DNA of 64,000 bases from Phycisphaerales bacterium (GTDB taxonomy: Bacteria; Planctomycetota; Phycisphaerae; Phycisphaerales; SM1A02), in contig SIAD01000009.1 of NCBI GenBank assembly GCA_009691915.1, positions 1 through 64,000 on the forward strand. Reading direction: 5' to 3'. The notes under the pieces are model-generated. The model made no database searches and was not told where the DNA came from. It saw only the letters and a program-made list of their open reading frames with translations. This document shows, piece by piece, positions 1,717 through 43,078 of this stretch (position 1 is its first letter; each line of letters starts with the position of its first letter). The position numbers and the translations under genes are program-made.

Positions 1717-4017
1717 TCAGGGCTTCTCGATGCGGACGACCACCGACTTTGATGCTGGAGTGAGGCTCCCCGCAGCGAACTCCGAAATCGGCACGAGCAC
1801 ATTGGTCTCAGGGAAGTACGCCGCACAGCAGCCACGCGGGATCTCGTAGGGAACGACGCGGAAGTTTCGCGCTCGGCGCAGCGGGCTTGCGCCCGCTTCC
1901 GTTGTGCGGCTCGCCTTACCCGAGGACACGATGTCGACGACATCGCGCGCCGCGAGCGAGCGTTCACGCAGGTCATCGACATTCATGAAGATGACGCGGC
2001 GCCCGCCACGGACCCCTCGGTACCGGTCGTCGAGCCCATAGATCGTCGTGTTGAATTGATCGTGAGAGCGGATGGTGGTAAGCAGGAGTTCCCCCGCGCC
2101 CACGAGTTCGTCAGGAATCGGATGGGTCATGAACTGCGCCCTGCCGCTGGAAGTCTCGAATTTCAGATGATCGCGAACGGGATGCGGCAGCGTGAACGCG
2201 GCATCTCGATGAATCCGCGCGTTGAATCCCTCAAACCCCGGGACGACTCGGGCGATTCTGTCGCGAATAAGGTCGTAGTTGCTGGCGAAGTGACCCCAGT
2301 CGATGCCAAGCACCGCCTTCGCTAGACCCCCGACGATGGCTACCTCGCTACGCAGGTCGGCGGAGCCTGGCTCCAGCCGCCCCCGCGAAGCGTGTACGAC
2401 CCCCATGGAGTTTTCTACGGTGACGATCTGCTCAATTCCGTGCTGGCTGTCGCGTTCCGTGCGTCCGAGGCAGGGAAGAATGAGTGCCTCCTCCCCCGTG
2501 ACGAGATGCGACCGGTTGAGTTTGGTCGAGATGTGCGCCGTCAAGGTGCATCGATCAAGCGCAGTGGCCGTGTAGTTCGTGTCGGGTGTCGCGGAGAGAA
2601 AGTTTCCGCCCATCGCGAGGAAGACGCGCGCGTGTCCCGAGTACATCGCCTCGATCGCCTCGATAGTGCTCAGCCCGTGATCGCGTGGCGGAGAGAAGGT
2701 GAACTCAGCCGCAAGGGCATCGAGGAATTCGCGCGACGGCCGCTCCCAGATTCCCATCGTGCGATCCCCCTGCACATTGCTGTGGCCACGCACCGGGCAC
2801 GCGCCCGCTCCCCTGCGACCGAAATGGCCCCCCAGCAGCAGGAGATTCGTAATCTGCTGGATGTTCGCGACGGCGTTGCGATGCTGCGTCACCCCCATCG
2901 CCCAACAGCAGATCATCGCCTTCGACTGAGCGATCTCCGCGGCCGCAGTTCGAATCGTCGCCTCATCGATCCCCGACGAAGCCTCGATGCGATCCCATCG
3001 CTCCCCGGCGAGGTCGGCGCAGTGCGCCTCGAATCCATCGGTGCGCTCGGCAATGAATCGACGGTCAATGCACTCCCCGTGGCTCTCGATAATCACCTTC
3101 TGGATCCCTTTGAGAAGCGCGACATCCCCGTTGATGCGCACTCCAAGGTGCCGCGACGCAATCTTCGTTCCGCGCCCGAAGAGGCCGACAATGTCCTGCG
3201 GGTGTTTGAACCGCCGAAGCCCCGCCTCGTGAAGCGGGTTGATGCTGATGATGCGGCACCCACGACGCGCCGCGGCTTGCAGCGCGCTGAGCATTCGCGG
3301 ATGATTGGTCCCGGGATTCTGGCCGATCACCAGGATGCAGTCGGCGTGATCGAAGTCCTCGAGAAGCACGGTTCCCTTGCCGCTCCCGATCGACTCCTTC
3401 ATCGCGACACCGCTCGACTCGTGACACATGTTGGAACAGTCGGGCAGGTTGTTGGTCCCGAACATGCGCACGAACAGCTGGTAGAGGAACGCCGCCTCGT
3501 TGCTCGTCCGCCCGGAGGTGTAGAAGATCGCCTCGTTCGGCGACGAGAGACCCCGAAGGTGGCGCGCGACCAGTTGGAAGGCGCCATCCCAGGAAATGGG
3601 TGTGTAGTGCGTCGCGTCTTTCGCGCGATGCATCGGCGTTGTCAGGCGGCCCTGCTGCGAGAGCCAGTAGTCGCTTTCGCGTGAGAGCTCACCAATCGAT
3701 CGCGCAGCGAAGAACTCGGGGCCGATGCGCCGTGAAGTCGCCTCTTCTGCGATCGCCTTGGCACCGTTCTCGCAGAACTCGACCATCGAACGACGCGTCG
3801 GTTCGGGCCACGCGCACCCCGGGCAATCGAATCCGTCGGCCTTGTTGACATCAAGGAGGGTCGATGCCGAGCGGGCGATCCCCATCTGACCAACTGCAAT
3901 CGTCAGCGCGACCTTGACCGCGTCGAGCCCACCGGCCGACTCTGCTGGCGGCGAGATCGTGAGCGCGTCGTCGGGGTGTTCCGGCGGGAGTCGCTGGGGC
4001 GTCCCGCCATCGTTCAT
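1717..4017 (-). CDS. FdhF/YdeP-family molybdopterin oxidoreductase alpha subunit
   Basis: The product is 766 residues. The ATG at 4017 is chosen because it overlaps the fdhD stop in an ATGA junction. It belongs to the bis-MGD molybdenum enzymes of the formate dehydrogenase H alpha / YdeP type. An N-terminal CPGC motif (residues 65-68) begins a short CPGCAWPEP segment typical of YdeP. NLPDCSNMCHESSG includes Cys198, the likely metal ligand in place of selenocysteine. GQNPGTNHPR and the C-terminal molydopterin dinucleotide domain fit the family. YdeP-like enzymes have no firmly known substrate, so calling it a formate dehydrogenase would be too specific. Placement after fdhD suggests that FdhD sulfurates its cofactor. 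Why it sits in a purine operon is unknown. Confidence 0.85.
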   Translation of the reverse strand: MNDGGTPQRLPPEHPDDALTISPPAESAGGLDAVKVALTIAVGQMGIARSASTLLDVNKADGFDCPGCAWPEPTRRSMVEFCENGAKAIAEEATSRRIGPEFFAARSIGELSRESDYWLSQQGRLTTPMHRAKDATHYTPISWDGAFQLVARHLRGLSSPNEAIFYTSGRTSNEAAFLYQLFVRMFGTNNLPDCSNMCHESSGVAMKESIGSGKGTVLLEDFDHADCILVIGQNPGTNHPRMLSALQAAARRGCRIISINPLHEAGLRRFKHPQDIVGLFGRGTKIASRHLGVRINGDVALLKGIQKVIIESHGECIDRRFIAERTDGFEAHCADLAGERWDRIEASSGIDEATIRTAAAEIAQSKAMICCWAMGVTQHRNAVANIQQITNLLLLGGHFGRRGAGACPVRGHSNVQGDRTMGIWERPSREFLDALAAEFTFSPPRDHGLSTIEAIEAMYSGHARVFLAMGGNFLSATPDTNYTATALDRCTLTAHISTKLNRSHLVTGEEALILPCLGRTERDSQHGIEQIVTVENSMGVVHASRGRLEPGSADLRSEVAIVGGLAKAVLGIDWGHFASNYDLIRDRIARVVPGFEGFNARIHRDAAFTLPHPVRDHLKFETSSGRAQFMTHPIPDELVGAGELLLTTIRSHDQFNTTIYGLDDRYRGVRGGRRVIFMNVDDLRERSLAARDVVDIVSSGKASRTTEAGASPLRRARNFRVVPYEIPRGCCAAYFPETNVLVPISEFAAGSLTPASKSVVVRIEKP

Positions 4018-4901
4018 AGGATCACTCGCTGAGGTGTCGAGTAGACATTGCACCTACCGTCACGCACAAAGCCAACCAGGGTCATGTCGAACCTCTGAGC
4101 GAGATCGATCGCGAGACTGGACGGCGCGCCGACGGACGCCACCAGTGGAATCCGCGCCGCCAGCGCCTTCTGGACAAGCTCAAAGCTTGCGCGACCGCTG
4201 AGGATGAGCGCCATCGCCGAGAGGTCGGTCTCGCCGGCTATGAACCTGGCGCCCAGCACCTTGTCCACTGCGTTGTGGCGGCCGACATCTTCTCGCACGG
4301 CGACGATCTCGCCGACCGCATTCGCAAGTGCAGCAGCATGCAGCCCACCGGTCCTGTCGAATGTCCGCTGCATCGCACGCACGCGCTCGGGGAGCGCAAC
4401 GAGGGTGGATGCGGCCATCACGAAGCCGTCGGGGTTGGGCCTCTCCCGCCCATCCACATCCAGCGCCTCTATCGAGGCGCGTCCGCAGATCCCGCAGCTG
4501 GACGACGCGTACACATGCCGTTCAAAGCGCGGCCAATCATGAGCCAGACTTCGTGCGAGTGTCACGCGGACGGCGTTCTGCCCTCGGTGTCGCCCACCGA
4601 TGGCTCCGCAACTGACGATCGCGACGACATCCGAGCGCTCGCGCACGATCCCCTCTCCGAAGAGGAATCCTGCCGCGAGTTCTTCGTCATGGCCCGGGGT
4701 GCGCATGGTGATCGACAGCGTGCGGCGAGTTCGCACATCACCATCGAACCACTCCATGATGATCTCCAGAGGCTCTTCGATCACGACTTCGTCGCGCATC
4801 GCCCCAACGCACTCCGCCCCGACGCGCATAGCGCCAACTTCGACACTCTGGGGCACCTCGCGCTGGGAACCAACCAAGCCTGACGCGTCCGTTGCGCTCA
4901 T
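4014..4901 (-). CDS. fdhD: FdhD sulfurtransferase for molybdenum cofactor
   Basis: The product is 295 residues. The ATG at 4901 overlaps the xdhC stop (ATGA) and has a strong GGAGG just upstream. FdhD carries sulfur from a cysteine desulfurase to the Mo-bisMGD cofactor of formate dehydrogenase-like enzymes. The CGICG motif (Cys136 and Cys139) holds the conserved sulfur-carrier cysteines. GRASFELVQKAL and ASVGAPSSLA are family signatures of the C-terminal domain. It also overlaps the following fdhF-like gene by four bases, so the two are translationally coupled. Its position between an xdhC and an fdhF-type gene suggests a shared Moco maturation module. Confidence 0.93.
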   Translation of the reverse strand: MSATDASGLVGSQREVPQSVEVGAMRVGAECVGAMRDEVVIEEPLEIIMEWFDGDVRTRRTLSITMRTPGHDEELAAGFLFGEGIVRERSDVVAIVSCGAIGGRHRGQNAVRVTLARSLAHDWPRFERHVYASSSCGICGRASIEALDVDGRERPNPDGFVMAASTLVALPERVRAMQRTFDRTGGLHAAALANAVGEIVAVREDVGRHNAVDKVLGARFIAGETDLSAMALILSGRASFELVQKALAARIPLVASVGAPSSLAIDLAQRFDMTLVGFVRDGRCNVYSTPQRVIL

Positions 4902-5740
4902 GATGCCTCCACGCCGGCCTCGTGCTCGGCCAGGAGGTGATGCCATCTCGTACTTCCTCCTAGTTCGTCCCGTACCTGCAGGAGTTGCGCCGCGATGCTG
5001 ACGGCAATCTCGGCGGGATCATTTCGTCCGATGGGCAAACCGAGTGGGCACCGAATCGCGGCGACCGCCTCGCGGGAAAATCCCTCTTGCAGCAGTGCCG
5101 CGCGCAGCGCCCTCGACTTCGGCTCGCTTCCGATGACCCCGATGAACGCCGCCTCTCCCCACGCCAATAGTTCGCGCACGACTGGCAGGTCGGTCGCGTG
5201 TCCCTGGGTGATCGAGAGGCAGAACGATCCGGACGCGAGCCTCCGCACGGCCGCAGCAGGGTCAGCGACGACCTCAGCGTGCACATTCTTCTTCGCGGGG
5301 AGACGCGAGATCCACTCTGGGCGCGGATCAATGCAGGTCACATCGCAGTCGAAGGATGCGACCAGTGGGAGCAGTGTCTGCACGACATGCCCCGCGCCGA
5401 AGACGGCGACCTTCCATCGCGCCGCCTCGGCGACTTCGTAGTACAGCGTCGCTGCCCCGCCACACACCATGCCTAGATCGCGCAGTAGTTCGTATCGGAC
5501 GGACTCGGGCCGGGGATCCGCGCGCGCGAGCATCTCTCTGGCGTGGTCGATGGCCCTTGCCTCCAACCTGCCTCCGCCGACCGTTCCCCAGACGAGTCCC
5601 TCAATGCTCACGATCGCCTTGGCCCCGACATCCTGCGGCACATGCCCCTGCGCCTCGACGAGTGAGACCGACACGAACGCGACCCCGGCACTCCTGAGTT
5701 CCCGTGCCCTCGCGAGATAATCCCCAAGCACGCGGCTCAT
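4898..5740 (-). CDS. xdhC: XdhC-type molybdenum cofactor maturation protein
   Basis: The product is 280 residues. XdhC binds molybdenum cofactor, promotes its sulfuration and inserts it into xanthine dehydrogenase. The N-terminal XdhC/CoxI domain has SIEGLVWGTVGGGRLE and MVCGG (residues 91-95), the latter typical of cofactor-binding XdhC. The C-terminal half is a Rossmann domain with VFGAGHV (residues 113-119) and an acidic strand end at CIDPR. It starts nine bases after the xdhB stop and overlaps fdhD by four bases, so it is clearly part of the same transcription unit. Confidence 0.92.
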   Translation of the reverse strand: MSRVLGDYLARARELRSAGVAFVSVSLVEAQGHVPQDVGAKAIVSIEGLVWGTVGGGRLEARAIDHAREMLARADPRPESVRYELLRDLGMVCGGAATLYYEVAEAARWKVAVFGAGHVVQTLLPLVASFDCDVTCIDPRPEWISRLPAKKNVHAEVVADPAAAVRRLASGSFCLSITQGHATDLPVVRELLAWGEAAFIGVIGSEPKSRALRAALLQEGFSREAVAAIRCPLGLPIGRNDPAEIAVSIAAQLLQVRDELGGSTRWHHLLAEHEAGVEAS

Positions 5741-5749
5741 GCGGACACT

Positions 5750-8131
5750 CTATCTGCGCGCGGCCACCGACTCGAACAGCTCAGGGGAGAGCGCGCGAAG
5801 GACCCGCTCGCCCGTGGCCGGAATTGCCAGCGAGACCACCTCGCCCGCCGGCGCTGCGCCAGGCCGTGTGCGGGCGGCCTGAATCGCATCGCGGATTGCC
5901 GTCCACACGGATATGGCGAGAAGAAGCGGCGGTTCGCCTGTCGCCTTGCTTGCGCGGATGTTCTGCGTGTTGCCATCATTCACGATCACATCCGCGTTGA
6001 ACACGCGCGGCGTGTCTTGGATGCTCGGAATCTTGTAGGTGCTGGGCGAGTGCGAGACCAGTTTCCTGTTGTCGTCATAGACAAGGTGTTCGGTCGTCAT
6101 CCATCCCATGCCCTGCACGAATCCGCCGTAGATCTGACCAAGATCAAGCGACTTGTTGATGGGCCTACCGATGTCCATCAGAATGTCCACGCGACACACC
6201 TTGACGGCGCCCGACATGGGGTCGATCTCGACCTCACTGCATGCGACCCCCTGCGTGAAGTACCGGAACGCTCTGCCTGATCCCTCCACCTTGTTGTAGG
6301 AGAGGTCCGGTGTGCGGAACCGCCCATGCTCACAGATCGAGATGCGACTGCGAACGCACTCGAAGGCCAACTGGGCGAAGGGAATGCCCAGAGCCGTGAG
6401 GTCGACCGGTCCATCCATTCCCTCGCCCACCTCGATCTCGGGAACTGTGCCGAGTCCGGCAGTCTTGCTGGGCCACCGCTCGGGTGGCGTCTTGCTCAGC
6501 ACCGCTGCGAGTGCCGCCATGCGGGCCTTGATCCGGCGACACGCGTCCACTGCCGCGGCGCCGTTCATATCCGTCCCCACGGATGCCGCGGTCGGCGATG
6601 TGTTCGCGTTCTTCTCTGTGGAAGTTGGCGCAAGTCTGACGGACGACACGGGGATTCCGAACTCCTCCGCAACCAACGCGGCGATTCGCGCGTTGACGCC
6701 CTGCCCCATCTCGACAGCGCCCGTCGACACCTGCACCGTCCCGTCGGTATGCACATTCACGAGCGCGCTCGCTTGATTCATGGCCCGTGTAGTGAACGAA
6801 ATGCCGAACTTTACCGCGGTCAACGAGAGGCCGCGCGGGCTACCGTCGCCAGTGGCGTTCCACTGGCGAATCGCTTCGCGCCGCGCCCGGTAGTCGCAAG
6901 ACGCCTCAAGTTTCTCGAAGAGTTCTGGAAGACAGTTGTTGTCGACACGCTGCCCGTAATGTGTGACCTCGTGACCTGGTCGATAGCAGTTGGCCTTGCG
7001 CACATCGAGCGCATCGCGGCCAGTCGCATCGGCGACCGCCTCGATGACCGACTCGATCATCGCCACGCCTTTGGGACCGCCGAATCCGCGGAACGCTGTG
7101 TGGGGATGGACATTCGTCCGGCACACCCGTCCGCGAACGCGCATGTTCGGGATGGAGTAGGCGTTGTCGCAATGGGCGAGTGCGCGCTCCATGATCGCCG
7201 TCGAGAGATCGGCGTAGGCACCGCCGTCCGAGCGCAGCGTGGCATCGAGTGCGAGAATCATCCCGGCGTCGTCGAATCCACATCGCCACGCGATCACGAA
7301 GGGGTTCCGCTTCCCGGTGATAATCATGTCTTCATCCTTGGTGAGTACCAGCCGCGCGGCGCGGCCAGTCTTCTGCGCAACGAGCGCGGCCCACGCCGCG
7401 ATCGGCGTCGCCTGCGACTCCTTGCCGCCGAACGCGCCCCCAAGCCGTCGCGCGATGCAGACCACCTCATGGGAATGGAGGCCGCAGGCGCGCGCGACGA
7501 CATGCTGCGCCTCGGTCGGGTGCTGCGTCGATGAGTGCACTTCCAACTGAGCGCCATCACGCGGGTACACCACCGCCGCCTGACTCTCCAGATAGAAGTG
7601 GTCCGCGCCATCGATGATGAGTGTGCCCTCTAGCGTGCGTGGAGCACTCCCGAGCGCCGCCTCTACATCACCGGTGGCAATCGTGCGCTCTACACCGATG
7701 AACCGTTCGGCCGCAATCGCTTCTTCGATCGACATGATGGCGTCGAGCCTCTCGTACTCGACGACAACGGCCGCAATTCCTCGGCGGAGTGCATCCTGAG
7801 TCTGCGCGCCGACCACTGCTACCGCCTCACCCACGAAGTTGACTTCGGTCTCGGCCAAAAGCGGTTGATCCTCAAAGATCGGTCCCCAGAGGTTGTGTCG
7901 AACATCGCGCGCGGTGATCACGCACGCAACACCGTCGATGGCGAGCGCCGCGCTCGTGTCGAGGCGAACAATCCGCGCGTGCGCCCACGGGCTGAAGACG
8001 ATGCCGCAGTGGAGTTCTCCCTTGACCATTGGGCGGTCATCGACAAACTCCGATTGGCCGGTGACATGGGTCAACGCCGAATCGTGCAGTTCGTCAACAC
8101 TGGCGGAGTCGGCTGGCCTCGGGTCACCCAT
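5750..8131 (-). CDS. xdhB: Xanthine dehydrogenase molybdopterin-binding subunit XdhB
   Basis: The product is 793 residues from the ATG at 8131, which overlaps the xdhA stop by eight bases (ATGGGTGA). An earlier in-frame start at 8206 would lengthen the overlap to 83 bases and adds residues unlike the family. This subunit carries the Mo site where xanthine is hydroxylated to urate. Family features include VTGQSEFVDD near the N-terminus, GGAFGGKES in the first Mo-binding region, FRGFGGPKG (Moco-contacting Arg), and a C-terminal KATGEPPLLL that contains the likely catalytic Glu. The length matches other two-subunit XdhAB enzymes. Confidence 0.95.
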   Translation of the reverse strand: MGDPRPADSASVDELHDSALTHVTGQSEFVDDRPMVKGELHCGIVFSPWAHARIVRLDTSAALAIDGVACVITARDVRHNLWGPIFEDQPLLAETEVNFVGEAVAVVGAQTQDALRRGIAAVVVEYERLDAIMSIEEAIAAERFIGVERTIATGDVEAALGSAPRTLEGTLIIDGADHFYLESQAAVVYPRDGAQLEVHSSTQHPTEAQHVVARACGLHSHEVVCIARRLGGAFGGKESQATPIAAWAALVAQKTGRAARLVLTKDEDMIITGKRNPFVIAWRCGFDDAGMILALDATLRSDGGAYADLSTAIMERALAHCDNAYSIPNMRVRGRVCRTNVHPHTAFRGFGGPKGVAMIESVIEAVADATGRDALDVRKANCYRPGHEVTHYGQRVDNNCLPELFEKLEASCDYRARREAIRQWNATGDGSPRGLSLTAVKFGISFTTRAMNQASALVNVHTDGTVQVSTGAVEMGQGVNARIAALVAEEFGIPVSSVRLAPTSTEKNANTSPTAASVGTDMNGAAAVDACRRIKARMAALAAVLSKTPPERWPSKTAGLGTVPEIEVGEGMDGPVDLTALGIPFAQLAFECVRSRISICEHGRFRTPDLSYNKVEGSGRAFRYFTQGVACSEVEIDPMSGAVKVCRVDILMDIGRPINKSLDLGQIYGGFVQGMGWMTTEHLVYDDNRKLVSHSPSTYKIPSIQDTPRVFNADVIVNDGNTQNIRASKATGEPPLLLAISVWTAIRDAIQAARTRPGAAPAGEVVSLAIPATGERVLRALSPELFESVAARR

Positions 8132-9593
8132 CGGCAAGCTCCCGGGCGAAACGGCGGAACATGTTTGCGGCGACCACTCGTCGGTAGTCCGCACTCCCGC
8201 GGACATCGGAAATCGGCGCGATCGACCCCGCGATCTGCGCGGCGATCGACTCGACCTTGTGTGGCGTGAGTTCGCCGACGAGCATCTCTTCGATCGCCCC
8301 CAACCTCAGGGGCGTGGCCGCAATGCCCCCGTAGGCAACTCGCGCCGACGCGATCATCGGGAAGGCGCAAGCGTCGGCGACACTGCGGCGGCGTGAGAGC
8401 GGACGATCGCTTCGTGTCACCGCGAACGCTGCATTCACTGCGCTGATATCGAGGTCTCGGCGTTGTGAGACCTTGAAAAGGCGCAGCGTCTCCCCGGCTA
8501 CCGTCTGGTCAAAGGAGATGTGGGTGATGATCTCCCCGTGCGAGACCGCAAGTGTCCTGTAGCCGGCGAACAACTCCGTCAGTGGAATCACGCGTCGCGC
8601 GATCGGTCCGCGACCGAGGGCGCGACTCGCCACATGAATCGCGCCGCCCGCCACCAGCAGAAACGGGAGCGTGTCTCCGATCGGCGACGCGTTGGCGACA
8701 TTGCCTGCGAGCGTCGCGACATTCTTGATCTGCGGCGACGCGAAGAGATCAAGGAAGCGTGCGAACTCGGGAGCAGCCTTCCCGCAGGCACGACGAAGTT
8801 GTGCGAGGGTGGCGCATGCGCCGACCTCGATGTGTCGCCGAGCCGAGCGGATGAAGTTGAGTTCGCGCACAAGGTGGAGGCTGAGCAGTATCTGTGGCCA
8901 CGGAGCACCCTTGTTGATCTGAACTCCGAGATCTGTGGCCCCTGCAATCACGCGGCAGGGTGCCGGACTGCCGGCGAGAGCGAGCGCGGATCGGAGGGTT
9001 GTCGGCGCGTACACCGAGGTGCTTCCCGCCGCGATCTGAAACGGTTCTTCGGCCGCCTTGGCAACCGCGACCACGGCGGCCGGCTCGAGAAACCGCCCAC
9101 TCACCGAGTGTGCCGTCGACGCGCGCGCCGCGCATCCGGCATCGATGATCTGCGAATAGCCGGTGCATCGGCAGAGGTTCCCCGTGAGGTAGTTGGCGAC
9201 AGTCTTTGCAGGCGCCGACTCGTGCCGCTCGAGCATTGCGCTGAGTGCCATCACGAAGCCCGGCGTGCAGTAGCCGCACTGGGAGCCGTGGCACTCAGCC
9301 ATGGCACGCTGCGCGGGTGCGAGTTCCCCATTGCGGGCCATCGCCTCGACCGAGACGATGTGTGAGCAGTCCATTTGCGCGACGGTCGTGATGCAGGCGT
9401 TGACGGCTTCGAACTCACTGCCCCCGAAACTCCGCAGCACCGTGCACGCGCCGCAATCCCCCTCGGCGCAGACAATCTTCGTGCCCGGCAGTCCCTCCTC
9501 GCGCCTCAGCCAGTCGGCGAGCATCAATAGCGCGTCCCGACCACGGACCTCCCGGCGAACGCCGTTGAGGTAGATCAATGAGTAGTCACGCAT
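8124..9593 (-). CDS. xdhA: Xanthine dehydrogenase FeS/FAD subunit XdhA
   Basis: The product is 489 residues. The N-terminal plant-ferredoxin-like [2Fe-2S] site has Cys42, Cys47 and Cys50 (CAEGDCGAC). The second [2Fe-2S] domain has Cys106 and Cys109 (CGYCTPG) and Cys141 and Cys143 (CRCTG). The FAD-binding domain follows from about residue 180, with ATLAGNVANASPIGD as its flavin signature. It passes electrons from the Mo site in XdhB to NAD+. The gene starts 32 bases after the stop of the giant fusion gene, which places xanthine oxidation and the later purine steps in one operon. Confidence 0.95.
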   Translation of the reverse strand: MRDYSLIYLNGVRREVRGRDALLMLADWLRREEGLPGTKIVCAEGDCGACTVLRSFGGSEFEAVNACITTVAQMDCSHIVSVEAMARNGELAPAQRAMAECHGSQCGYCTPGFVMALSAMLERHESAPAKTVANYLTGNLCRCTGYSQIIDAGCAARASTAHSVSGRFLEPAAVVAVAKAAEEPFQIAAGSTSVYAPTTLRSALALAGSPAPCRVIAGATDLGVQINKGAPWPQILLSLHLVRELNFIRSARRHIEVGACATLAQLRRACGKAAPEFARFLDLFASPQIKNVATLAGNVANASPIGDTLPFLLVAGGAIHVASRALGRGPIARRVIPLTELFAGYRTLAVSHGEIITHISFDQTVAGETLRLFKVSQRRDLDISAVNAAFAVTRSDRPLSRRRSVADACAFPMIASARVAYGGIAATPLRLGAIEEMLVGELTPHKVESIAAQIAGSIAPISDVRGSADYRRVVAANMFRRFARELADG

Positions 9594-9625: not shown

Positions 9626-12600
9626 CTACGGCGATGCGTAGGCGCGGATGCGGTTGATCCCGCCGTCGGGAAATGCTGTCACTCGGATCTGGCTGACTTC
9701 GTCACGCGCCGTGACCACAAATGATGCGACATTCCCCGCATACGGCTTGACAAGAGTGCGGGGTAGCAGTTCGATCCACTTGGAGAGCGCGAGACCCTCG
9801 ACCATCGCCTCGCGCGGCGCGTTGTTGACAAAGTGAGTGAAGTCGAACTCGATTCGTCCGAGGCGCGCCGGACGCGCGAGCGCGATGACGACTTGTTCGG
9901 AATGGCCAGGCTCGCGGCTCCTCGCCGACTCGAGCCCGTCGTACATGTGGAGTGGTGGGTAGGGTGAGATCACTTGCACCGCGGGGCCGAAGTGTTCGTT
10001 CGACACCGATACGACCCGCCCACCGAACGCTGCGCATGCGAGATCATCGTTCGCGCTCGGCGTACGCTGAGCGCGGTCACAGTGGGGCACCAATGGTCGT
10101 GGAGTCGAGGCTGAGAACGGCGGCCACCTGGTCCGTCGTGTTGCGACGAGGAGCGCGCGCTCCGCCGCAGGCAGGTCGGCTCCGAAGAATCCAAGCCGAG
10201 ACACTCCACCGTCTGGCTCGATGGAGATTCGGAAGCGCGCCCACTCTCTGGTGCCCGAGACGGCATCAAAGACATGGATAGTGTGGCCGTCGAGCGCACT
10301 TCGCGGGAGCACTTGGTGCCAGGTCTTGGTCGCCACACACCAGCCATCAAGCATGATCCAGGGGGCGTGATTCCCCAAGTGAAACTGCGTTGACACCGTG
10401 ATGAGATCGATTGCCGTCGGCTGAGTGATGTCGATCACGAGCCACTCCCGACCGCGCTCGCTATGTCGTGATGTTTCCCAACTGTCCATCACCTTGCCTT
10501 GGGATCCGAACAGTCCGGGATCGAAGATGGGGAGATAGGGCGAAACCAGGTTGTCGGCCCGCGCGAATCGCTGGTTAGTGACTTCGACGATCGACGCACC
10601 AACCGCCCGGTTCCATGGTGACAGTGGATCGACGGCGCCGCGCGCCAGGATTACCTCGGGAAAATCCGGCGAAAACGCCCCGAAGAGACGGTCGCGGTAC
10701 TCCGCGTTGACCCGCTCGTGCTCTGGAACCATCGCAGATCCGGCCGCCACCTCAGCACCGTCGAGGCGCGCGAAGTCCACTCCCTTGATAGCGAGATGCC
10801 CGAGCGCCGCACGCGCCGATTCGGTGACAAACTCAACCGCCGCAGCATCGCCGTTACACAGAACAACAACACCCTTGCCCGCATCCGGACCTCGGTAGCA
10901 GTGGACGAAGAGTGAACGGAATCCATCGTTGGCTCCGTGATGGACACAGAGACGGTTGGGTCCTGCCTCGATCGTGAAGATCCCCAGTCCCATCATGCAC
11001 CCCATGAATGCACCGCTGCCGTTCTCGATGCCGTGAAGCATTCGCACTGCGGTGTCGTGGGAGATCCCGGCGGCTCCCTCGACGCGCGCATGCGCGCACG
11101 CAAGCCGCGCGAGAAACCGCGCGACACACCCGGCACTCGTCAGGATCCCGGCGGCGAAGAGCGGGAACTCCTTGCGAGTCCCCTCGACCATCTCCCCGTC
11201 ATCACGGAACCCCCACGCGCACTCATGTGACTCGCATGGACCCAGCATTGCATCGATGAGATCGCGCGAAGACCTTTCTGTCAGTCGCGTGAGGATGTGC
11301 TCGAGGACTAGGAACCCTCCGCCCGAGTACCGAAAGCCGCAGCCCGGTTCCGCGATGACGCCGATGGCCGCCCGCCCCTCGGTATCCCGCGCGCTTAGCC
11401 GAGCGTCAACACTGATGGACTCGCCGTTGGCCGGTGTCCCCTCGATGTAATGCATCGAGAGCGCTTCGTGCCGAAGGAGATGTTCGATGGTGACGAGATC
11501 GGCCCACTCGGGATGTGCATCAACACGCGACTCGATCCGGTGCGCTGACCCGATGCGCGCGAGCAGCTCGTTGACTCTCGTCGAGAGCATGATGCCCCGC
11601 GACGCGAGTGCTTCCATCGCGATGCACGACGCGATGGGCTTGCTCAGCGAGGCGATCTCGAAGTTGGTTGATGCCGTCACGGGTCTTCCCGGCGCACCGA
11701 CCCCGAACGCAAGTTCCTGAATCCCTCCCCCAGCGCAAAGAATGGCGACCGACGCCCCGCGCACTTTGAAACGCACCCGCGCCTCCTCTATAGACGCCAC
11801 GAGCGCGCTCCTCCCCCCGGAAGTCAGGCGCGCGAGGGCAATAGTCGCCAACGCCGTCCGCGCCGAGGCGAGTTCGGTCTCAGGCGAGTTTTCGAGCCGT
11901 TCGCGCAAGAAACTGAGTAGTGCGATGGCCGAAAAACCCTTCGCCGCCGCGAGAAACTTGAACCCAAACCGCTTCTTGTACTTCTCGCCCAAGGAGTGCA
12001 ACTGCTCGCGCACTGCGGTGTCTGCGCCGACCACACCCGCCTGCTCCGCCGCGGCGAGTGGGTCGAGTGTCGCGCTCGCTTGGCCGATGTCCCCGTGAAA
12101 CTCACCGGCCTCAGACACCTCGGCGGCGGTGAAAGCGAGGATCACTCGCGCGACATCCCTCGGGTCGATCACGGCCCACTCCTCGGACCTCTCGGCGAGC
12201 ACCCGGGCGCAGCACGCGGACAACACTTCGTGACAGAGACCAACCCGAGCGCCTAGCGCAAACTTCTGTTCATCGAGCGCCGTCGCCGCCGCCAACGGAT
12301 CAGCCGCAGCACGGATCGATTCAATCGTGAACGGCATCAGGAGCTCCGAGGCGAACTCCACCGGACGCGCGTCCGACATCAGCTTGAGCGTCAGATGCGC
12401 CGCGACCGGGTACCAGCGCCGCGTTCGCTCGTCGAAGGCGACCTGCACGCGCTTACCCGGCGCGCTGTCGCCTCGCTGAATGAACCGCAACTCCTCGTGG
12501 ATGATGCGCACGAAGTCTGCGGTGCTGAGTCGCCCGTGATGCACCTCGTGCCAGACCTCCCACCGAGACCGCTCGCAGGTGGCGAGATCATCCATCACAC

Positions 12601-14299
12601 GGACATCGATCCCGTCGATCGTCGCAGGCAGCGCAACGCATCCGTTTCCTGAGAGCCAGTCAGCGAGGTACTGGAGCGTTTGGAAGATGTTGTAACGCAC
12701 CTCGCTCTCGTCGCTGGTGAGTTCGTGAACGCGCGCCCGGCCGTCAGCAGCAAGGATCGCTCGCGGGTACCTGGCATCATTGCGATCGAGCCCAGCGACA
12801 TCGGGTCCCTCGATGAACGCGCGCAGCGCGACCAGTCGACTGGGCACGACTAGTCCGTCGATCAGCGCATCGAACGCCGCACCCTCGCCGCGCTCGCGTC
12901 GTCGCCATCCCTCAACGAGCGCGATCCCGAGCCGCACGAAATCCGGATGGGCTACCCAGAACCCCATGAGACCACGCTTCATCTGCGCGACGACATCTCT
13001 TATGAATCCAGTGATGGCCACCTGAAACGACTCGCTGTCGCTGCGCGCCTCGGATGGCAGCACGCCGTACATCCCCCCGATGGCGATCCCGCCTCGCGCC
13101 TTCACCGTCCGGGCCAGAAGGTCGTGCGACTCCCGAATGTTGTTGATGACAATGTCGGGATCGGCTTTCAGAGGGATCCGGTAGTTGGGATCCTCTTTCA
13201 TTACACGCGCGGTCGAGGCGAGGAAATCGTGCCATCCCAGCGAGGCGCCGGCGAAATGCGGATGAAGCGCATCAATGATCTCGTTGATGCGGAACACAGC
13301 GCGCGCACTCTCAAGGACGACGAGTACGCGAACCGATCCGAGGCGATATCTCGAGTGCTGCTTCGCAATCATTCCCTCGGCTCGCGCGATCACATCGTGT
13401 ACATACTGGGCTTCCTCCTCGTTCTCAAGCTTGGGGATGTAGAACGCGAGTGCTTGTGGATCAGCCCAGTGCTGGTACAGGTGCAGGGCCAAGTCGTAGA
13501 GATGGAGCGGCACAGGATCGCCGTCACATAGGAGGAACGAACAGGGAAGCGCGAGGCCGGGGATCCGCTTGATCGGAAGGGCGAGTCCGTCATCGGCGAG
13601 CTGGTACACGCGCCCCGAAGTGGGGTCGACATGCCTGAGGGATCCAGAGAGACACCCGGCGAGATTCTCTCCTGCGCGCACGAGGTCCTCCGAGAGAGGT
13701 GTTTTTGAGTCCTCGTCATCCGCGCCCCACTTCGGCCCACGCGCGGTGCGAAGAAGTTCCTCAACGACACTCGGTTCGCCGTCTAGCTTCCGATGAAGCG
13801 AGTTCATCGCATTGATGCAGACCTTCGCATCGCCCGGAGGCCCGAACAGCGTCACATGATCGCCTGAGAGGAACTCTGGAATTGCCGCGACCATTTCGCC
13901 GCATCCCATCGTCCACTGGGCACCGGACTTTGGCCCGATCACCACGCGACCCGACGCATCCTCGTGGCTGATGACCGTCTCGTAGGTGCCGTCGGCCACC
14001 GCGGCGCCAATCGTCCTGTTGAAGCCCACGCATGCGCGCGTGTGCAGGTCGATGAACTCACGATCCTCTCGCCGCCGTCGAAGCAGTGCGCCGAGTTCTC
14101 CTCGAGTCTGACGGGTCAACTGGGCAAGGAAACTGAGACTCGCCACGCTCTCGAGGCCGCCACCCTCCCCGAGGCGTGCAACTCCAGGGACTCCCGGAAC
14201 TGCCATCGCGCTCGAACGGATCCTCTCTAGAATTCCCGCAGAGAAATACTCCGTAAACTCGGGAAATCCGGCGCCATGCGCGCCTTCGCATCGACCCAT
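9626..14299 (-). CDS. Four-domain purine-degradation fusion: malate synthase / OHCU decarboxylase / serine hydrolase / allantoicase
   Basis: The product is 1557 residues from ATG 14299. An upstream in-frame start at 14455 would overrun the divergent uraH. Residues about 10-620 are malate synthase A-like: GADDEDSKTP matches the MADFEDS motif, and PKLENEEEA, VVLESARAVF, LGWHDF and AIGGMYG follow. SGNGC and MDDLATCERSR carry the likely catalytic Asp. Residues about 650-828 match OHCU decarboxylase, with HGDIG (His735, equivalent to HPDLG), AAEQ and KRFGFKF. Residues about 833-1173 are a beta-lactamase-fold hydrolase with SLSK (Ser884, Lys887), YSGGG and HHGAND. Residues about 1225-1557 are allantoicase with two repeats (KVMDSWETSR, then MYDGLES and a third GH-rich segment). 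The enzymes bracket the route from OHCU to malate. The serine hydrolase has no assigned step. Confidence 0.9.
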   Translation of the reverse strand: MGRCEGAHGAGFPEFTEYFSAGILERIRSSAMAVPGVPGVARLGEGGGLESVASLSFLAQLTRQTRGELGALLRRRREDREFIDLHTRACVGFNRTIGAAVADGTYETVISHEDASGRVVIGPKSGAQWTMGCGEMVAAIPEFLSGDHVTLFGPPGDAKVCINAMNSLHRKLDGEPSVVEELLRTARGPKWGADDEDSKTPLSEDLVRAGENLAGCLSGSLRHVDPTSGRVYQLADDGLALPIKRIPGLALPCSFLLCDGDPVPLHLYDLALHLYQHWADPQALAFYIPKLENEEEAQYVHDVIARAEGMIAKQHSRYRLGSVRVLVVLESARAVFRINEIIDALHPHFAGASLGWHDFLASTARVMKEDPNYRIPLKADPDIVINNIRESHDLLARTVKARGGIAIGGMYGVLPSEARSDSESFQVAITGFIRDVVAQMKRGLMGFWVAHPDFVRLGIALVEGWRRRERGEGAAFDALIDGLVVPSRLVALRAFIEGPDVAGLDRNDARYPRAILAADGRARVHELTSDESEVRYNIFQTLQYLADWLSGNGCVALPATIDGIDVRVMDDLATCERSRWEVWHEVHHGRLSTADFVRIIHEELRFIQRGDSAPGKRVQVAFDERTRRWYPVAAHLTLKLMSDARPVEFASELLMPFTIESIRAAADPLAAATALDEQKFALGARVGLCHEVLSACCARVLAERSEEWAVIDPRDVARVILAFTAAEVSEAGEFHGDIGQASATLDPLAAAEQAGVVGADTAVREQLHSLGEKYKKRFGFKFLAAAKGFSAIALLSFLRERLENSPETELASARTALATIALARLTSGGRSALVASIEEARVRFKVRGASVAILCAGGGIQELAFGVGAPGRPVTASTNFEIASLSKPIASCIAMEALASRGIMLSTRVNELLARIGSAHRIESRVDAHPEWADLVTIEHLLRHEALSMHYIEGTPANGESISVDARLSARDTEGRAAIGVIAEPGCGFRYSGGGFLVLEHILTRLTERSSRDLIDAMLGPCESHECAWGFRDDGEMVEGTRKEFPLFAAGILTSAGCVARFLARLACAHARVEGAAGISHDTAVRMLHGIENGSGAFMGCMMGLGIFTIEAGPNRLCVHHGANDGFRSLFVHCYRGPDAGKGVVVLCNGDAAAVEFVTESARAALGHLAIKGVDFARLDGAEVAAGSAMVPEHERVNAEYRDRLFGAFSPDFPEVILARGAVDPLSPWNRAVGASIVEVTNQRFARADNLVSPYLPIFDPGLFGSQGKVMDSWETSRHSERGREWLVIDITQPTAIDLITVSTQFHLGNHAPWIMLDGWCVATKTWHQVLPRSALDGHTIHVFDAVSGTREWARFRISIEPDGGVSRLGFFGADLPAAERALLVATRRTRWPPFSASTPRPLVPHCDRAQRTPSANDDLACAAFGGRVVSVSNEHFGPAVQVISPYPPLHMYDGLESARSREPGHSEQVVIALARPARLGRIEFDFTHFVNNAPREAMVEGLALSKWIELLPRTLVKPYAGNVASFVVTARDEVSQIRVTAFPDGGINRIRAYASP

Positions 14300-14330
14300 T
14301 GCCGAAAGATACTCCGGACTACGGAGATCT

Positions 14331-14359
14331 TTGACCCGCGGGGGTGGGTGACCTAGGCT
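14331..14359 (+). promoter_or_regulatory. Predicted sigma70-type promoter for uraH-uox
   Basis: TTGACC at 14331-14336 is followed after 17 bases by TAGGCT at 14354-14359, close to the consensus -35 and -10 elements. Transcription would begin near 14366, which is the GTG start codon of uraH, so the message may be leaderless. It lies in the 66-base gap between the divergent fusion gene and uraH. Confidence 0.4.
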
Positions 14360-14365
14360 CCCTGC

Positions 14366-14719
14366 GTGGCCAACGCGACTGAACCAGGCCTCTCGACGCA
14401 TGTGCTCGACACGACAACGGGCATGCCTGCGGTCGACATGCTCATCGAATGCCATCGACTGGAGACCTCAGGATGGGTCCTCCTCTCCGCCGCACGCACC
14501 GACGCCGACGGTCGCATCAATTCGATGCTCAGCGGGACGCAACTGACGACGGGCGATCATCGCGTCAACTTCATGACCGGCGCGTGGTACGCGCGGCGGC
14601 GCATGGATTGCTTCTTCCCCACGGTCACCATCGAGTTCCGAGTCTCCGACGCGGCTAGACACCATCACATTCCGCTGCTTGTGAGTCCATTCTCGTACTC
14701 CACCTACCGAGGGTCCTGA
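14366..14719 (+). CDS. uraH: 5-hydroxyisourate hydrolase (transthyretin-like)
   Basis: The product is 117 residues with a GTG start. It hydrolyses 5-hydroxyisourate, the product of urate oxidase, to OHCU. Both ends carry the family signatures: LSTHVLDTTTG near the N-terminus with catalytic His12, and the C-terminal YRGS tetrapeptide. It lies one base before urate oxidase on the same strand and diverges from the fusion gene whose second domain should decarboxylate OHCU. An uncatalysed route exists for this step, so the enzyme gives speed and stereochemistry. Confidence 0.95.
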   Translation: MANATEPGLSTHVLDTTTGMPAVDMLIECHRLETSGWVLLSAARTDADGRINSMLSGTQLTTGDHRVNFMTGAWYARRRMDCFFPTVTIEFRVSDAARHHHIPLLVSPFSYSTYRGS

Positions 14720-14720
14720 C

Positions 14721-15632
14721 ATGGCGATCATCCTGGGCGCGAATCGCTACGGCAAAGCCGAAGTGCGAGTCGTGCGTCTCACCCGCCATGGCGACACGCA
14801 CGAACTCCTCGACCTCAGCGTCACGACGCAGCTCTCCGGAGACTTCGCGGCAACTCATCTGACCGGCGCCAACGCGCATGTCATCCCGACCGACACCCAG
14901 AAGAACACGGTCTTTGCACTGTCCAAACTCCACGGCGCCATGGAACCGGAGGCGTTCGGCCTGGTGCTGGCGCGGCACTTTCTCGCCAGCTTCTCCCATG
15001 TGTCCTGCGCGGAAGTCCGCCTCGAACAGTTCCCATGGCAGCGGATCATGTGCGCGGGCCGCCCGCATCCCCGCGCCTTCCAGCGCGACGGGTCGAGTGT
15101 CCGCACCGCGCTCGTCCGCGTCACACGCGCTGGCTCGGGGTTCACTGCGGAGGTGAGTTCGGGTCTTGAGGGGCTCGTCGTCCTCAAGACCAGCGATAGC
15201 GAGTTCACCGGATTCTCGAAAGACCAGTTCACGACGCTTGCGGAGGCGCGTGATCGGATCATGGCGACGGAAGTTTCCGCTCGCTGGAGGCACGGCGCCA
15301 CCGACGCAGCGTCGCTCGATGCGACCGACTGGGCGACAAGTCACGCGACCGCGCTCGACTCCCTGCTCTCCACCTATGCGGAGCACTACAGCCTCTCACT
15401 CCAGCAGACTCTTCATGAGATGGGCCGCGCGACACTTGAACGACTACCTGGCCTCACCGCAATCAAACTGAGCCTTCCCAACAAACACCACTTCGTTGTG
15501 GATCTCTCGCCCTTCGGGATGCCCAATGACAACGAGGTCTTCTTCGCCGGGGATCGCCCCTACGGACTTATCGAGGCGGTCATCGCTCGCGATGATGTCA
15601 GCGCGGTGCCTGATCCTTGGCCGGCGTGGTGA
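14721..15632 (+). CDS. Urate oxidase (cofactor-free uricase)
   Basis: The product is 303 residues, the usual length for uricase. It oxidises urate with O2 to 5-hydroxyisourate and H2O2. The N-terminal YGKAEVRVVRL contains the catalytic Lys, and PTDTQKNTVF contains the Thr that completes the charge relay. FSHVSCAEV, SEFTGF and the C-terminal NKHHFVVDLSPFG are further family signatures. ATG lies one base after the uraH stop, so the two are co-translated. With XdhAB it supplies the substrate for the fusion protein. Confidence 0.95.
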   Translation: MAIILGANRYGKAEVRVVRLTRHGDTHELLDLSVTTQLSGDFAATHLTGANAHVIPTDTQKNTVFALSKLHGAMEPEAFGLVLARHFLASFSHVSCAEVRLEQFPWQRIMCAGRPHPRAFQRDGSSVRTALVRVTRAGSGFTAEVSSGLEGLVVLKTSDSEFTGFSKDQFTTLAEARDRIMATEVSARWRHGATDAASLDATDWATSHATALDSLLSTYAEHYSLSLQQTLHEMGRATLERLPGLTAIKLSLPNKHHFVVDLSPFGMPNDNEVFFAGDRPYGLIEAVIARDDVSAVPDPWPAW

Positions 15633-41433: not shown

Positions 41434-42633
41434 ATGAGTGATCTCGCGTGGTACCGGGCAATCGCTCCCTTCAGTTCCTTTTCCGCGCTCACCGCCCACG
41501 GACATTTCCACCGCGTCCCCAATGACTGGACCGTAGTTGCGACCGACATCGCTGGTTCGACCGACGCCATCGAACGCGGGCACTACAAGGATGTCAACAC
41601 GCTGGGCGCGGCGTCAATCGTCGCGGTGCGCAACGCTCTGTCGGGAGCGGAGTTTCCATTCTCGTTCGGCGGTGATGGCGCCACGATCGCGATCCCATCC
41701 GCGCTGGCGCCGCGGGCCCTGACCGCGCTAGACCGACTCGGTCATCTTGCGCGCGCTAACTTCTCGTTGGCGCTGCGCGTCGGCTCGGTCACGACCGCCG
41801 AACTCGCATCACTCGGCTGCGATCTCGAGGTCGGCAAGTTCACGATCAACGGACAGCGCTCTCTCGCGGTGTTTCGGGGCGGGGCGCTCGCCAAGGCCGA
41901 GGAGATTCTGAAGTCCAGACGGTTCGCCGAACCTGCCGATCCGCACGATGCCGCGACCGACGATCCCAGTGCGCTAAATGGCCTCAGCTGCCGATGGCAG
42001 GCAGTACCGTCAACACGGGGGCGAATGGTGACCCTGATGGTGACCGCCACTGGCCGTCCCGATGATGCGATGCCCACCTACGCGCGCATTATCTCGCGCC
42101 TTGAAGCGATCATCGGCGGGGATCTCTTCAATGCCACGCCGATTCATCACGAGAACATGACCTATCGCCCGCTTCTAGAGATGCTCCGAGACGAGTGGCG
42201 GTACTCGCGGAAACGGCTGAGCCTCTCGTTCGTTCGGCGGATGCTGGAGATCGTCGCGGCGTGGCTGGTGTTCCGCTGTCACATCCCCCCGCTGTTCTTT
42301 GACCATCGCCACTATGCGCGCGCACTCTGCGCGCACTCCGACTTCCGCAAGTTCGATGACATGCTGCGGCTTGTCCTTGATGTCACGCTCGCCCAACGGG
42401 ACGCAATCAGGTCGATGCTCGAAGAGCTACATGCCGCCGGAGAGATCCGCTTCGGGCTTCATGAATCCGACAACGCGCTCATGACTTGCTATGTGGACAC
42501 CCTCGAAGACGGTGGTCACATCCACTTCGTCGATGGCGGTGATGGCGGCTACGCGCTCGCCGCGCGCTCGATGAAGTCGCAGGCCGCGCCCCCTAGTAGG
42601 CGACCCGGTCAGCCTTCTCTCGCCACTTCCTGA
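41434..42633 (+). CDS. DUF3095 family protein (nucleotide cyclase-like)
   Basis: The product is 399 residues from ATG 41434. The family is DUF3095: NDWTVVATDIAGSTDAIERGHYKDVN resembles the start of class III nucleotide cyclase domains (the D-x-x-x-ST metal-binding strand), and FSFGGDGATI resembles their second Asp motif. The C-terminal half includes HHENMTYRPLL and FFDHRHYARALCAHSDFRKFDD, which are family-specific. No product has been shown for DUF3095, so cyclase activity is only suggested. It overlaps guanine deaminase tail to tail by 41 bases. Confidence 0.8.
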   Translation: MSDLAWYRAIAPFSSFSALTAHGHFHRVPNDWTVVATDIAGSTDAIERGHYKDVNTLGAASIVAVRNALSGAEFPFSFGGDGATIAIPSALAPRALTALDRLGHLARANFSLALRVGSVTTAELASLGCDLEVGKFTINGQRSLAVFRGGALAKAEEILKSRRFAEPADPHDAATDDPSALNGLSCRWQAVPSTRGRMVTLMVTATGRPDDAMPTYARIISRLEAIIGGDLFNATPIHHENMTYRPLLEMLRDEWRYSRKRLSLSFVRRMLEIVAAWLVFRCHIPPLFFDHRHYARALCAHSDFRKFDDMLRLVLDVTLAQRDAIRSMLEELHAAGEIRFGLHESDNALMTCYVDTLEDGGHIHFVDGGDGGYALAARSMKSQAAPPSRRPGQPSLATS

Positions 42634-43078
42634 ACGCCGTGATGGCTTCGTCCCGCAAGAGCTGTGTGGCGGGGATGGCTCGCTCGACCGCGGGCAGCGC
42701 GAGCTCCCGGTAAATGAAGTCATCATCGAAGTCGATCGCGGCCGCGTCGGCTCGTGTGCCGCCGAACACGATCCGATCGATCCGTGCCCAGTAGATCGCT
42801 GAGAGGCACATCGGACAGGGCTCACAACTGGCGTAGATCGTCGCCCCTGCGAGTGTGAACTTCGACGCTGCTCGGCACGCGGCGCGGATGGCCTCGACCT
42901 CTGCGTGGGCGGTCGGATCGTTGCTGCTGGTCACCCGGTTGGATCCCTCGCCGATCACCGCTGCGTCGCGCACGATCACTGCACCAAATGGCCCACCACC
43001 GGCGGCGACATTGGCGACCGAGAGCTCGATGGCCCTCCTCAGAAACGCCGCGTCGAGTTCACTTTGCGACGCGGACAT
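42593..43078 (-). CDS. guaD: Guanine deaminase (cytidine deaminase fold)
   Basis: The product is 161 residues from ATG 43078; GTG/ATG starts further upstream lie deeper inside the preceding gene. It closely resembles the B. subtilis GuaD type: GGGPFGAVIV, TSSNDPTAHAEVEAI with zinc-binding His58 and catalytic Glu60, SCEPCPMC with Cys88 and Cys91, and FDDDFIYRE near the C-terminus. It converts guanine to xanthine and ammonia. That product is the substrate of XdhAB encoded 33 kb away. The start overlaps the stop of the upstream membrane protein gene by 20 bases. Confidence 0.88.
   Translation of the reverse strand: MSASQSELDAAFLRRAIELSVANVAAGGGPFGAVIVRDAAVIGEGSNRVTSSNDPTAHAEVEAIRAACRAASKFTLAGATIYASCEPCPMCLSAIYWARIDRIVFGGTRADAAAIDFDDDFIYRELALPAVERAIPATQLLRDEAITAFRKWREKADRVAY

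Follow-up and report, generated by a model that had tools for sequence, protein, structure and literature searches.

A single gene in the window, by which we mean the whole stretch of 64,000 nucleotides analysed here, appears to join a malate synthase, an OHCU decarboxylase, a serine hydrolase and an allantoicase in one chain. This raises the question of whether such a protein is genuine and, if so, what the serine hydrolase would do in the company of the other three enzymes. The initial annotation had reported the four modules as one uninterrupted frame, with a start that gives 9626..14299 and 1557 residues. The frame is borne out both by Pfam and by its recurrence in relatives; it lies on the minus strand of the window, the plus strand across 9626-14299 being broken by many stops.

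Architecture of the fusion protein

The longest version of the frame begins at its first ATG and spans 9626..14455 on the minus strand (1609 residues, referred to as P0001), and the residue numbers of the modules given below refer to this form. The actual start is more likely to be 14299, or an in-frame ATG near 14206, than the ATG at 14455, because from about 14366 upstream the frame shares its sequence with the divergent HIU hydrolase gene (14366..14719, plus strand), which covers the first ~30 codons of the 1609-residue form, and because the conservation seen among relatives begins only around residue 77-85.

From the N- to the C-terminus, Pfam recognises a malate synthase barrel with its C-terminal domain, an OHCU decarboxylase, a PF00144 serine hydrolase and two allantoicase repeats, all of them above the gathering scores and all on the minus strand. 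The malate synthase module (12341..14203, residues ~85-705) comprises the TIM barrel at 12929-13567 (PF01274, residues 297-509, 85 bits) and the MS_C domain (PF20659, residues 583-657, 36.8 bits). It is followed by the OHCU decarboxylase module (11816..12310, residues ~716-880), which matches PF09349 over residues 768-877 with 73.5 bits against a cut-off of 24, and by the serine hydrolase module (10748..11806, residues 884-1236), our candidate allantoinase, which matches the Beta-lactamase family PF00144 over residues 896-1217 with 62.4 bits against a cut-off of 27. The allantoicase module (9632..10600) is matched in two stretches with a total of 182.7 bits; its repeats lie at 10178-10600 and 9632-10024, and the two PF03561 repeats scored singly give 105.7 and 87.1 bits (cut-off 27).

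The more stringent NCBIfam models gave scores below their cut-offs, namely 139.5 bits for malate_syn_A (TIGR01344, equivalog cut-off 594.5), 66.8 bits for UraD_2 (TIGR03180, cut-off 139.4) and 189.8 bits for allantoicase (TIGR02961, equivalog cut-off 277.9), and the fusions of two relatives likewise remained under the NCBIfam equivalog cut-offs. These three modules are therefore divergent members of the malate synthase A, OHCU decarboxylase and allantoicase families.

Occurrence across bacterial genomes

Among 392 genomes of Planctomycetota, PF03561 exceeded its cut-off in 12; two of these, the window genome and G360 from another genus, have the giant frame, and in the other ten the open frames span 337-1075 residues. 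Within the window's own family, allantoicase is found in 21 of 181 genomes (four of 45 genera), always inside a giant frame of 1337-1724 residues, three of the 21 frames running off a contig end. A domain scan of family members gave the same Pfam families in 16 out of 16. Two more genomes of the family (G495 and G496) have the malate synthase part, in frames of 742 and 670 residues, and at locus L172 a frame of 742 residues is stopped by the contig end.

Two peptide patterns run against genome_contigs, across many phyla, returned 125 relatives, of which 80 loci were retained for analysis, the planctomycete loci among them overlapping with the 21 family genomes. An open frame of at least 1490 residues is present in 69 of the 80; nine loci hit contig ends and two are interrupted. 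The interruptions, a frame shift within the serine hydrolase in L158 and a broken open frame in L136, which aligns in a single frame, are read as sequencing error or decay rather than domain fission. Going by titles and, where placed, by tree position, 19 of the loci are planctomycete and 61 lie outside Planctomycetota. Bdellovibrionota group names (Bacteriovorax, Halobacteriovorax, Bdellovibrionales, Oligoflexia, Pseudobdellovibrio and others) are borne by 56 of these 61, and the remaining five (L114, L123, L138, L139 and L144) are titled just Proteobacteria or Deltaproteobacteria. Some titles of metagenome-assembled genomes are unreliable as species names; L109, titled Chitinophaga, sits on the planctomycete branch.

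An artefact of assembly or annotation might be suspected in a genome assembled into 34 contigs, however, with the giant frame repeated in 21 family genomes and frames of at least 1490 residues in 69 of 80 loci, this reading retains next to no probability, and an assembly artefact is ruled out by the recurrence itself. A search of protein databases for the same four-domain order had been proposed; in the genomes scanned, the order recurs in the 21 family members and in most of the 80 loci. The four-enzyme fusion is real and widespread, and it is probably old. Fusions within the urate pathway are known already; what is new is the union of four enzymes in one chain with malate synthase and a serine hydrolase among them, and no description of it was found in the open-licence PMC literature, among the matches listed.

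Catalytic residues and structural models

Active-site positions were followed in an alignment of 74 proteins, consisting of the window protein and those of 73 of the 80 loci, with L111, whose sequence contains X, and six short frames excluded. Wherever a letter is present, R297, E382, D410, D622 and D623 of the malate synthase, H787, E804, Q805 and R853 of the OHCU decarboxylase, and S936, K939, Y1043, H1172, G1174 and N1176 of the serine hydrolase are invariant, in keeping with the earlier statement that the active-site motifs are intact. The allantoicase has W1326, E1327, R1330, H1359, D1415, E1509 and R1512 invariant, and D1597 and H1541 vary. Short motif patterns missed some loci (YSGG in 15 rows, including L172, which ends before it, and, besides the shortened rows, M[DE]DxAT in L130 and W[GA]ADDED in L150 and L166), yet the catalytic positions as such are conserved throughout the 74-protein alignment.

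R297, E382 and D410 align with Arg166, Glu250 and Asp278 of E. coli malate synthase A (3cuz), and VMDDLAT of the fusion pairs with LMEDAAT, the motif that contains the base Asp; these three residues and the base Asp are the catalytic residues of the E. coli enzyme. H787 and E804 are presumably the catalytic His and Glu of the OHCU decarboxylase. H787 sits in HGDIG, the usual motif of such enzymes being HPxIG. The third module has SxxK, Tyr and HxG, the motifs of class C β-lactamase/S12 serine hydrolases.

The AlphaFold model of modules 1-2 (pLDDT 86.5) has E. coli malate synthase A 3cv2_B as its nearest structural match (Z 34.8, rmsd 2.4, 495 residues, 26% identity), in a fold comparison that barely covered the OHCU decarboxylase part. 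The model of the serine hydrolase (pLDDT 94.9) has a clear class C β-lactamase/S12 fold, and its structural neighbours (VIA) are a Pyrococcus PBP homologue (Z 33.5), the esterase IS11 (33.4) and LACTB (32.0), followed by D-amino acid amidase (31.8) and the R61 DD-peptidase (30.7). The solved neighbours thus include enzymes that cut amides, D-amino acid amidase and DD-peptidase.

We think it very improbable that the first module works on a different substrate as a related C-C lyase or synthase, a role that DUF6986 may have in ordinary clusters. The low malate_syn_A score and a weak Pfam match of the fusion protein to HpcH/HpaI would agree with such a role, as would the planctomycete G134, where DUF6986 comes after allantoicase and HIU hydrolase; however, the best fold match, with 495 residues aligned, is E. 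coli malate synthase A, the catalytic Arg, Glu and Asp and the base Asp are retained, and the fused module is the sole PF01274 match in all 21 fusion genomes of the family. Malate synthase is the reading that we keep, and its placement at the glyoxylate end of the urate pathway, as first suggested, is a sensible one.

Descent and selection

In a FastTree phylogeny of the 74 proteins, rooted at the midpoint only, the 19 planctomycete rows form a single group with a support of 100, nested among the other rows. Under this midpoint root, the tree is consistent with the entire unit having entered the window's planctomycete family in one transfer. Distances computed module by module correlate with r of 0.77-0.84 (69 proteins). 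In ten close pairs dN/dS is 0.02-0.20 across all four modules and 0.03-0.20 for the serine hydrolase, according to a simple Nei-Gojobori-type estimate in which dS is saturated in some pairs. The four modules have therefore moved largely as one, with selection maintaining all of them.

Gene neighbourhood

The fusion gene was initially placed at the head of a xanthine dehydrogenase operon, and the gap of 32 bases between its stop and the XdhA start agrees with this. Downstream on the minus strand follow the FeS/FAD subunit XdhA (8124..9593; Pfam FAD_binding_5, Fer2_2 and CO_deh_flav_C), the molybdopterin subunit XdhB (5750..8206; TIGR02965 with 841.3 bits, just under the cut-off of 849.5) and the accessory protein XdhC (4898..5740; PF13478 and PF02625). 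Divergent from the fusion, on the plus strand, lie the 5-hydroxyisourate (HIU) hydrolase gene (TIGR02962, 127 bits, above cut-off) and a uricase (14721..15632; TIGR03383 with 320 bits, above cut-off, and PF01014). After XdhC, molybdopterin oxidoreductase and FdhD-like genes are found at 1717-4946 on the minus strand, and the same pair occurs in G399 (L066) and G411 (L103).

HIU hydrolase adjoins the fusion in 19 of the 21 family loci, the window counted among them; in the two others, L072 and L076, the contig ends within the fusion on that flank. Uricase and XdhA are each present in 12 of the 21. A guanine-deaminase-like gene directly follows the fusion in nine of the 21 family loci, with XdhA next in four of those, and in L069, L071, L073 and L074 xanthine dehydrogenase was not found in the several kilobases flanking the fusion. 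The window itself has, at 42596-43048 on the minus strand, a PF00383 deaminase with 65% identity to the guanine-deaminase-like gene found after the G360 fusion.

PF01014 uricase occurs in 13 of the 181 family genomes, all 13 of which have the fusion. Eight of the 21 family fusion genomes are without it (G485, G486, G487, G490, G491, G494, G497 and G498). HIU hydrolase is kept in seven of these eight uricase-less loci; the eighth is L076, whose fusion extends past the contig end. A scan of 10 ORFs close to the fusion in L069, L073 and L078, nine of which had Pfam matches, found no substitute urate oxidase.

In the loci outside Planctomycetota, an upstream HIU hydrolase is seen in 51 of the 57 with room for it (on the same strand in 50), a PF06181 urate oxidase relative, identified by a Pfam scan of four loci, is upstream in 40 of 49 and uricase in none of the 49, and XdhB is present in 20 of 61. 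Applied to the 19 planctomycete loci, the same script placed HIU hydrolase upstream in 16 of 18, with counts of 10 of 16 for uricase and 11 of 19 for XdhB; L098 and L100 also have HIU hydrolase. With uricase in planctomycete loci and the PF06181 relative elsewhere, the fusion thus accompanies two unrelated urate oxidases. All four PF06181 urate oxidases of Bdellovibrionota that were scanned (L118:7919-9592, L143:7864-9567, L155:7912-9564 and L125:7670-9592) are without a CxxCH heme motif and have a weak CarboxypepD_reg match at the C-terminus; PuuD, by contrast, is described as a cytochrome c fusion (PMC4562309).

Proposed pathway and the allantoinase question

The window locus encodes enzymes for nearly all steps from xanthine to malate; the gaps are allantoinase and ureidoglycolate cleavage, and one hydrolase is left without a job. 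Judged from its sequence, the fusion is very probably a multi-enzyme protein of the lower urate pathway. OHCU would come from the enzymes of the flanking genes, xanthine dehydrogenase, urate oxidase and HIU hydrolase, and module 2 would decarboxylate it to allantoin. Module 3 would convert allantoin to allantoate, in place of the missing metal-dependent allantoinase, and module 4 would split allantoate into urea and ureidoglycolate. The latter would give glyoxylate and urea, spontaneously or via some enzyme, and module 1 would join glyoxylate and acetyl-CoA to form malate. Modules 2, 3 and 4 stand in pathway order along the chain. The acetyl-CoA needed by malate synthase is described as not being co-produced during allantoin breakdown (PMC12694930); we infer that prey lipids could supply it in predators.

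Two allantoinases are known, AllB and PuuE. AllB (TIGR03178) exceeded its cut-off in none of 71 fusion genomes (0 of 21 in the family and 0 of 50 others), and the same holds for PuuE (TIGR03212), with a best score of 31 bits; this search covered 50 of the 61 loci outside Planctomycetota, in genomes of unstated completeness. By comparison, AllB is above cut-off in nine of ten ordinary planctomycetes with allantoicase, adjoining the allantoicase gene in all nine, and the tenth (G006) has a short AllB match at a contig end beside allantoicase. Among 14 control genomes, AllB exceeded the cut-off in two and PuuE in one.

Two places where an AllB could have been overlooked were considered and rejected. 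The best TIGR03178 match of the window genome, with 205 bits against a cut-off of 358, is its single full-length match to the AllB profile and is a dihydroorotase (TIGR00857, 404.5 bits, cut-off 279). Second amidohydrolases of fusion genomes, scoring 211-291 bits with the AllB profile, proved to be dihydropyrimidinase or dihydroorotase in 21 of 21 cases checked. Nine higher-scoring matches from other planctomycete fusion genomes are all dihydropyrimidinases, and all 12 matches of the 50 non-planctomycete genomes, found at E<=1e-75, a threshold that would miss weaker dihydropyrimidinases, are six dihydroorotases and six dihydropyrimidinases. In planctomycete fusion genomes the check covered, besides the window genome's match, these nine out of a larger set of matches, many of which lie near 180-210 bits. 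Dihydropyrimidinase is present in many fusion genomes of the family and in at least six of the 50 others, and could help to open allantoin in some of them.

Both the genes present and the order of the modules therefore speak for allantoin as the substrate of the serine hydrolase. Given its position between OHCU decarboxylase and allantoicase, and AllB and PuuE scores under the cut-offs, we consider it an even question whether this module is the allantoinase. No serine-type allantoinase was found described in the open-licence PMC literature, among the matches listed.

It is fairly unlikely that the serine hydrolase is structural or acts on another substrate, as an esterase or D-aminopeptidase type enzyme, with the other three modules forming the pathway enzyme. 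PF00144 is functionally broad, a point that also weighs against the full explanation, and the best solved relatives include esterases and peptidases. However, the Ser, Lys, Tyr and His/Gly/Asn positions are invariant in the 74 proteins, omega is in the same low range as in the other modules, and no match to the serine hydrolase was found (E<=1) in the six tested among the ten ordinary planctomycete allantoicase loci.

We regard it as decidedly unlikely that the same lower-pathway protein uses its serine hydrolase on ureidoglycolate (or allantoate), with allantoin opened by a host dihydropyrimidinase or spontaneously. Dihydropyrimidinases are indeed present in many fusion genomes, and AllA (PF04115) was detected in none of 31 genomes tested, fusion-bearing or otherwise, so that the ureidoglycolate step is also without an enzyme. 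The 31 include the 10 ordinary planctomycetes, however, and their six tested loci are without such a serine hydrolase; AllA is thus missing with or without the fusion, unlike AllB, whose absence goes with it. Moreover, in the window genome neither AllB nor PuuE is above cut-off and the only full-length amidohydrolase match is the dihydroorotase, and ureidoglycolate is described as decaying spontaneously to glyoxylate and urea (PMC3793230).

On balance we narrowly favour the explanation as a whole, that of a lower-urate multi-enzyme protein with the serine hydrolase as allantoinase, all its activities being predicted from sequence. Weighing against it are the NCBIfam scores below cut-off, the dihydropyrimidinases, the eight family fusion genomes without PF01014 uricase, the loci with no xanthine dehydrogenase nearby and the acetyl-CoA demand of malate synthase. 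The initial annotation was right about the fusion, the motifs, the operon and the place of malate synthase, and missed the strand, the conservation across two phyla and the AllB and PuuE scores under the cut-offs. More tentatively, and as an account somewhat more apt to fail than to hold, module 3 may represent a third, unrelated class of allantoinase, acting on a cyclic ureide with an active-site serine in a β-lactamase fold, within a protein that would lead from OHCU to malate save for the self-decaying ureidoglycolate; the fusion would then be an old purine-breakdown unit of Bdellovibrionota, passed once into the window's planctomycete family.

Implications and comparison with known systems

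The fusion offers a testable prospect of a third allantoinase class. Should module 3 open allantoin, it would be a non-homologous substitute for the two known allantoinases, and annotation based on AllB and PuuE would overlook allantoin use in these bacteria. A conserved protein of ~1550 residues with four enzymes also provides a natural test case for the channelling of unstable OHCU and toxic glyoxylate. Many carriers of the fusion belong to groups known as predators, which points to a possible route by which predatory carriers obtain carbon and nitrogen from prey purines.

AllB is a metal-dependent amidohydrolase and PuuE is polysaccharide-deacetylase-like. The reaction proposed for module 3 is the same as theirs, however, module 3 is an S12-type hydrolase with an active-site serine, whereas AllB is described with a metal centre (PMC9863593).

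Joined enzymes of this pathway are described in eukaryotes. Cryptococcus neoformans has a fusion of allantoicase and ureidoglycolate hydrolase (PMC3646786), which similarly unites consecutive lower-urate enzymes, allantoicase included, but is eukaryotic, comprises two enzyme types without malate synthase, OHCU decarboxylase or serine hydrolase, and is accompanied by a separate DAL1 allantoinase. The yeast allantoin (DAL) cluster includes the malate synthase DAL7, which disposes of glyoxylate (PMC3646786), and so likewise ties malate synthase to allantoin breakdown, but through separate genes and with the DAL1 allantoinase. In plants OHCU decarboxylase is fused to HIU hydrolase (PMC3646786); the decarboxylase is joined to a pathway neighbour as here, but the partner differs, HIU hydrolase being separate at our loci. 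In none of these three systems are four enzymes united, and none includes a serine hydrolase or has malate synthase within the fused chain.

Closer at hand, the planctomycete G134 has a true fusion of allantoicase and OHCU decarboxylase (L031:10366-11946), with two of the same modules as the window protein but in reverse order, and with AllB and DUF6986 as separate genes. For DUF6986, no paper under the family name was found in the open-licence PMC literature, among the matches listed. At L031:12353-13783, a DUF6986 protein (581 bits) occupies the place expected of malate synthase in an ordinary planctomycete allantoin cluster.
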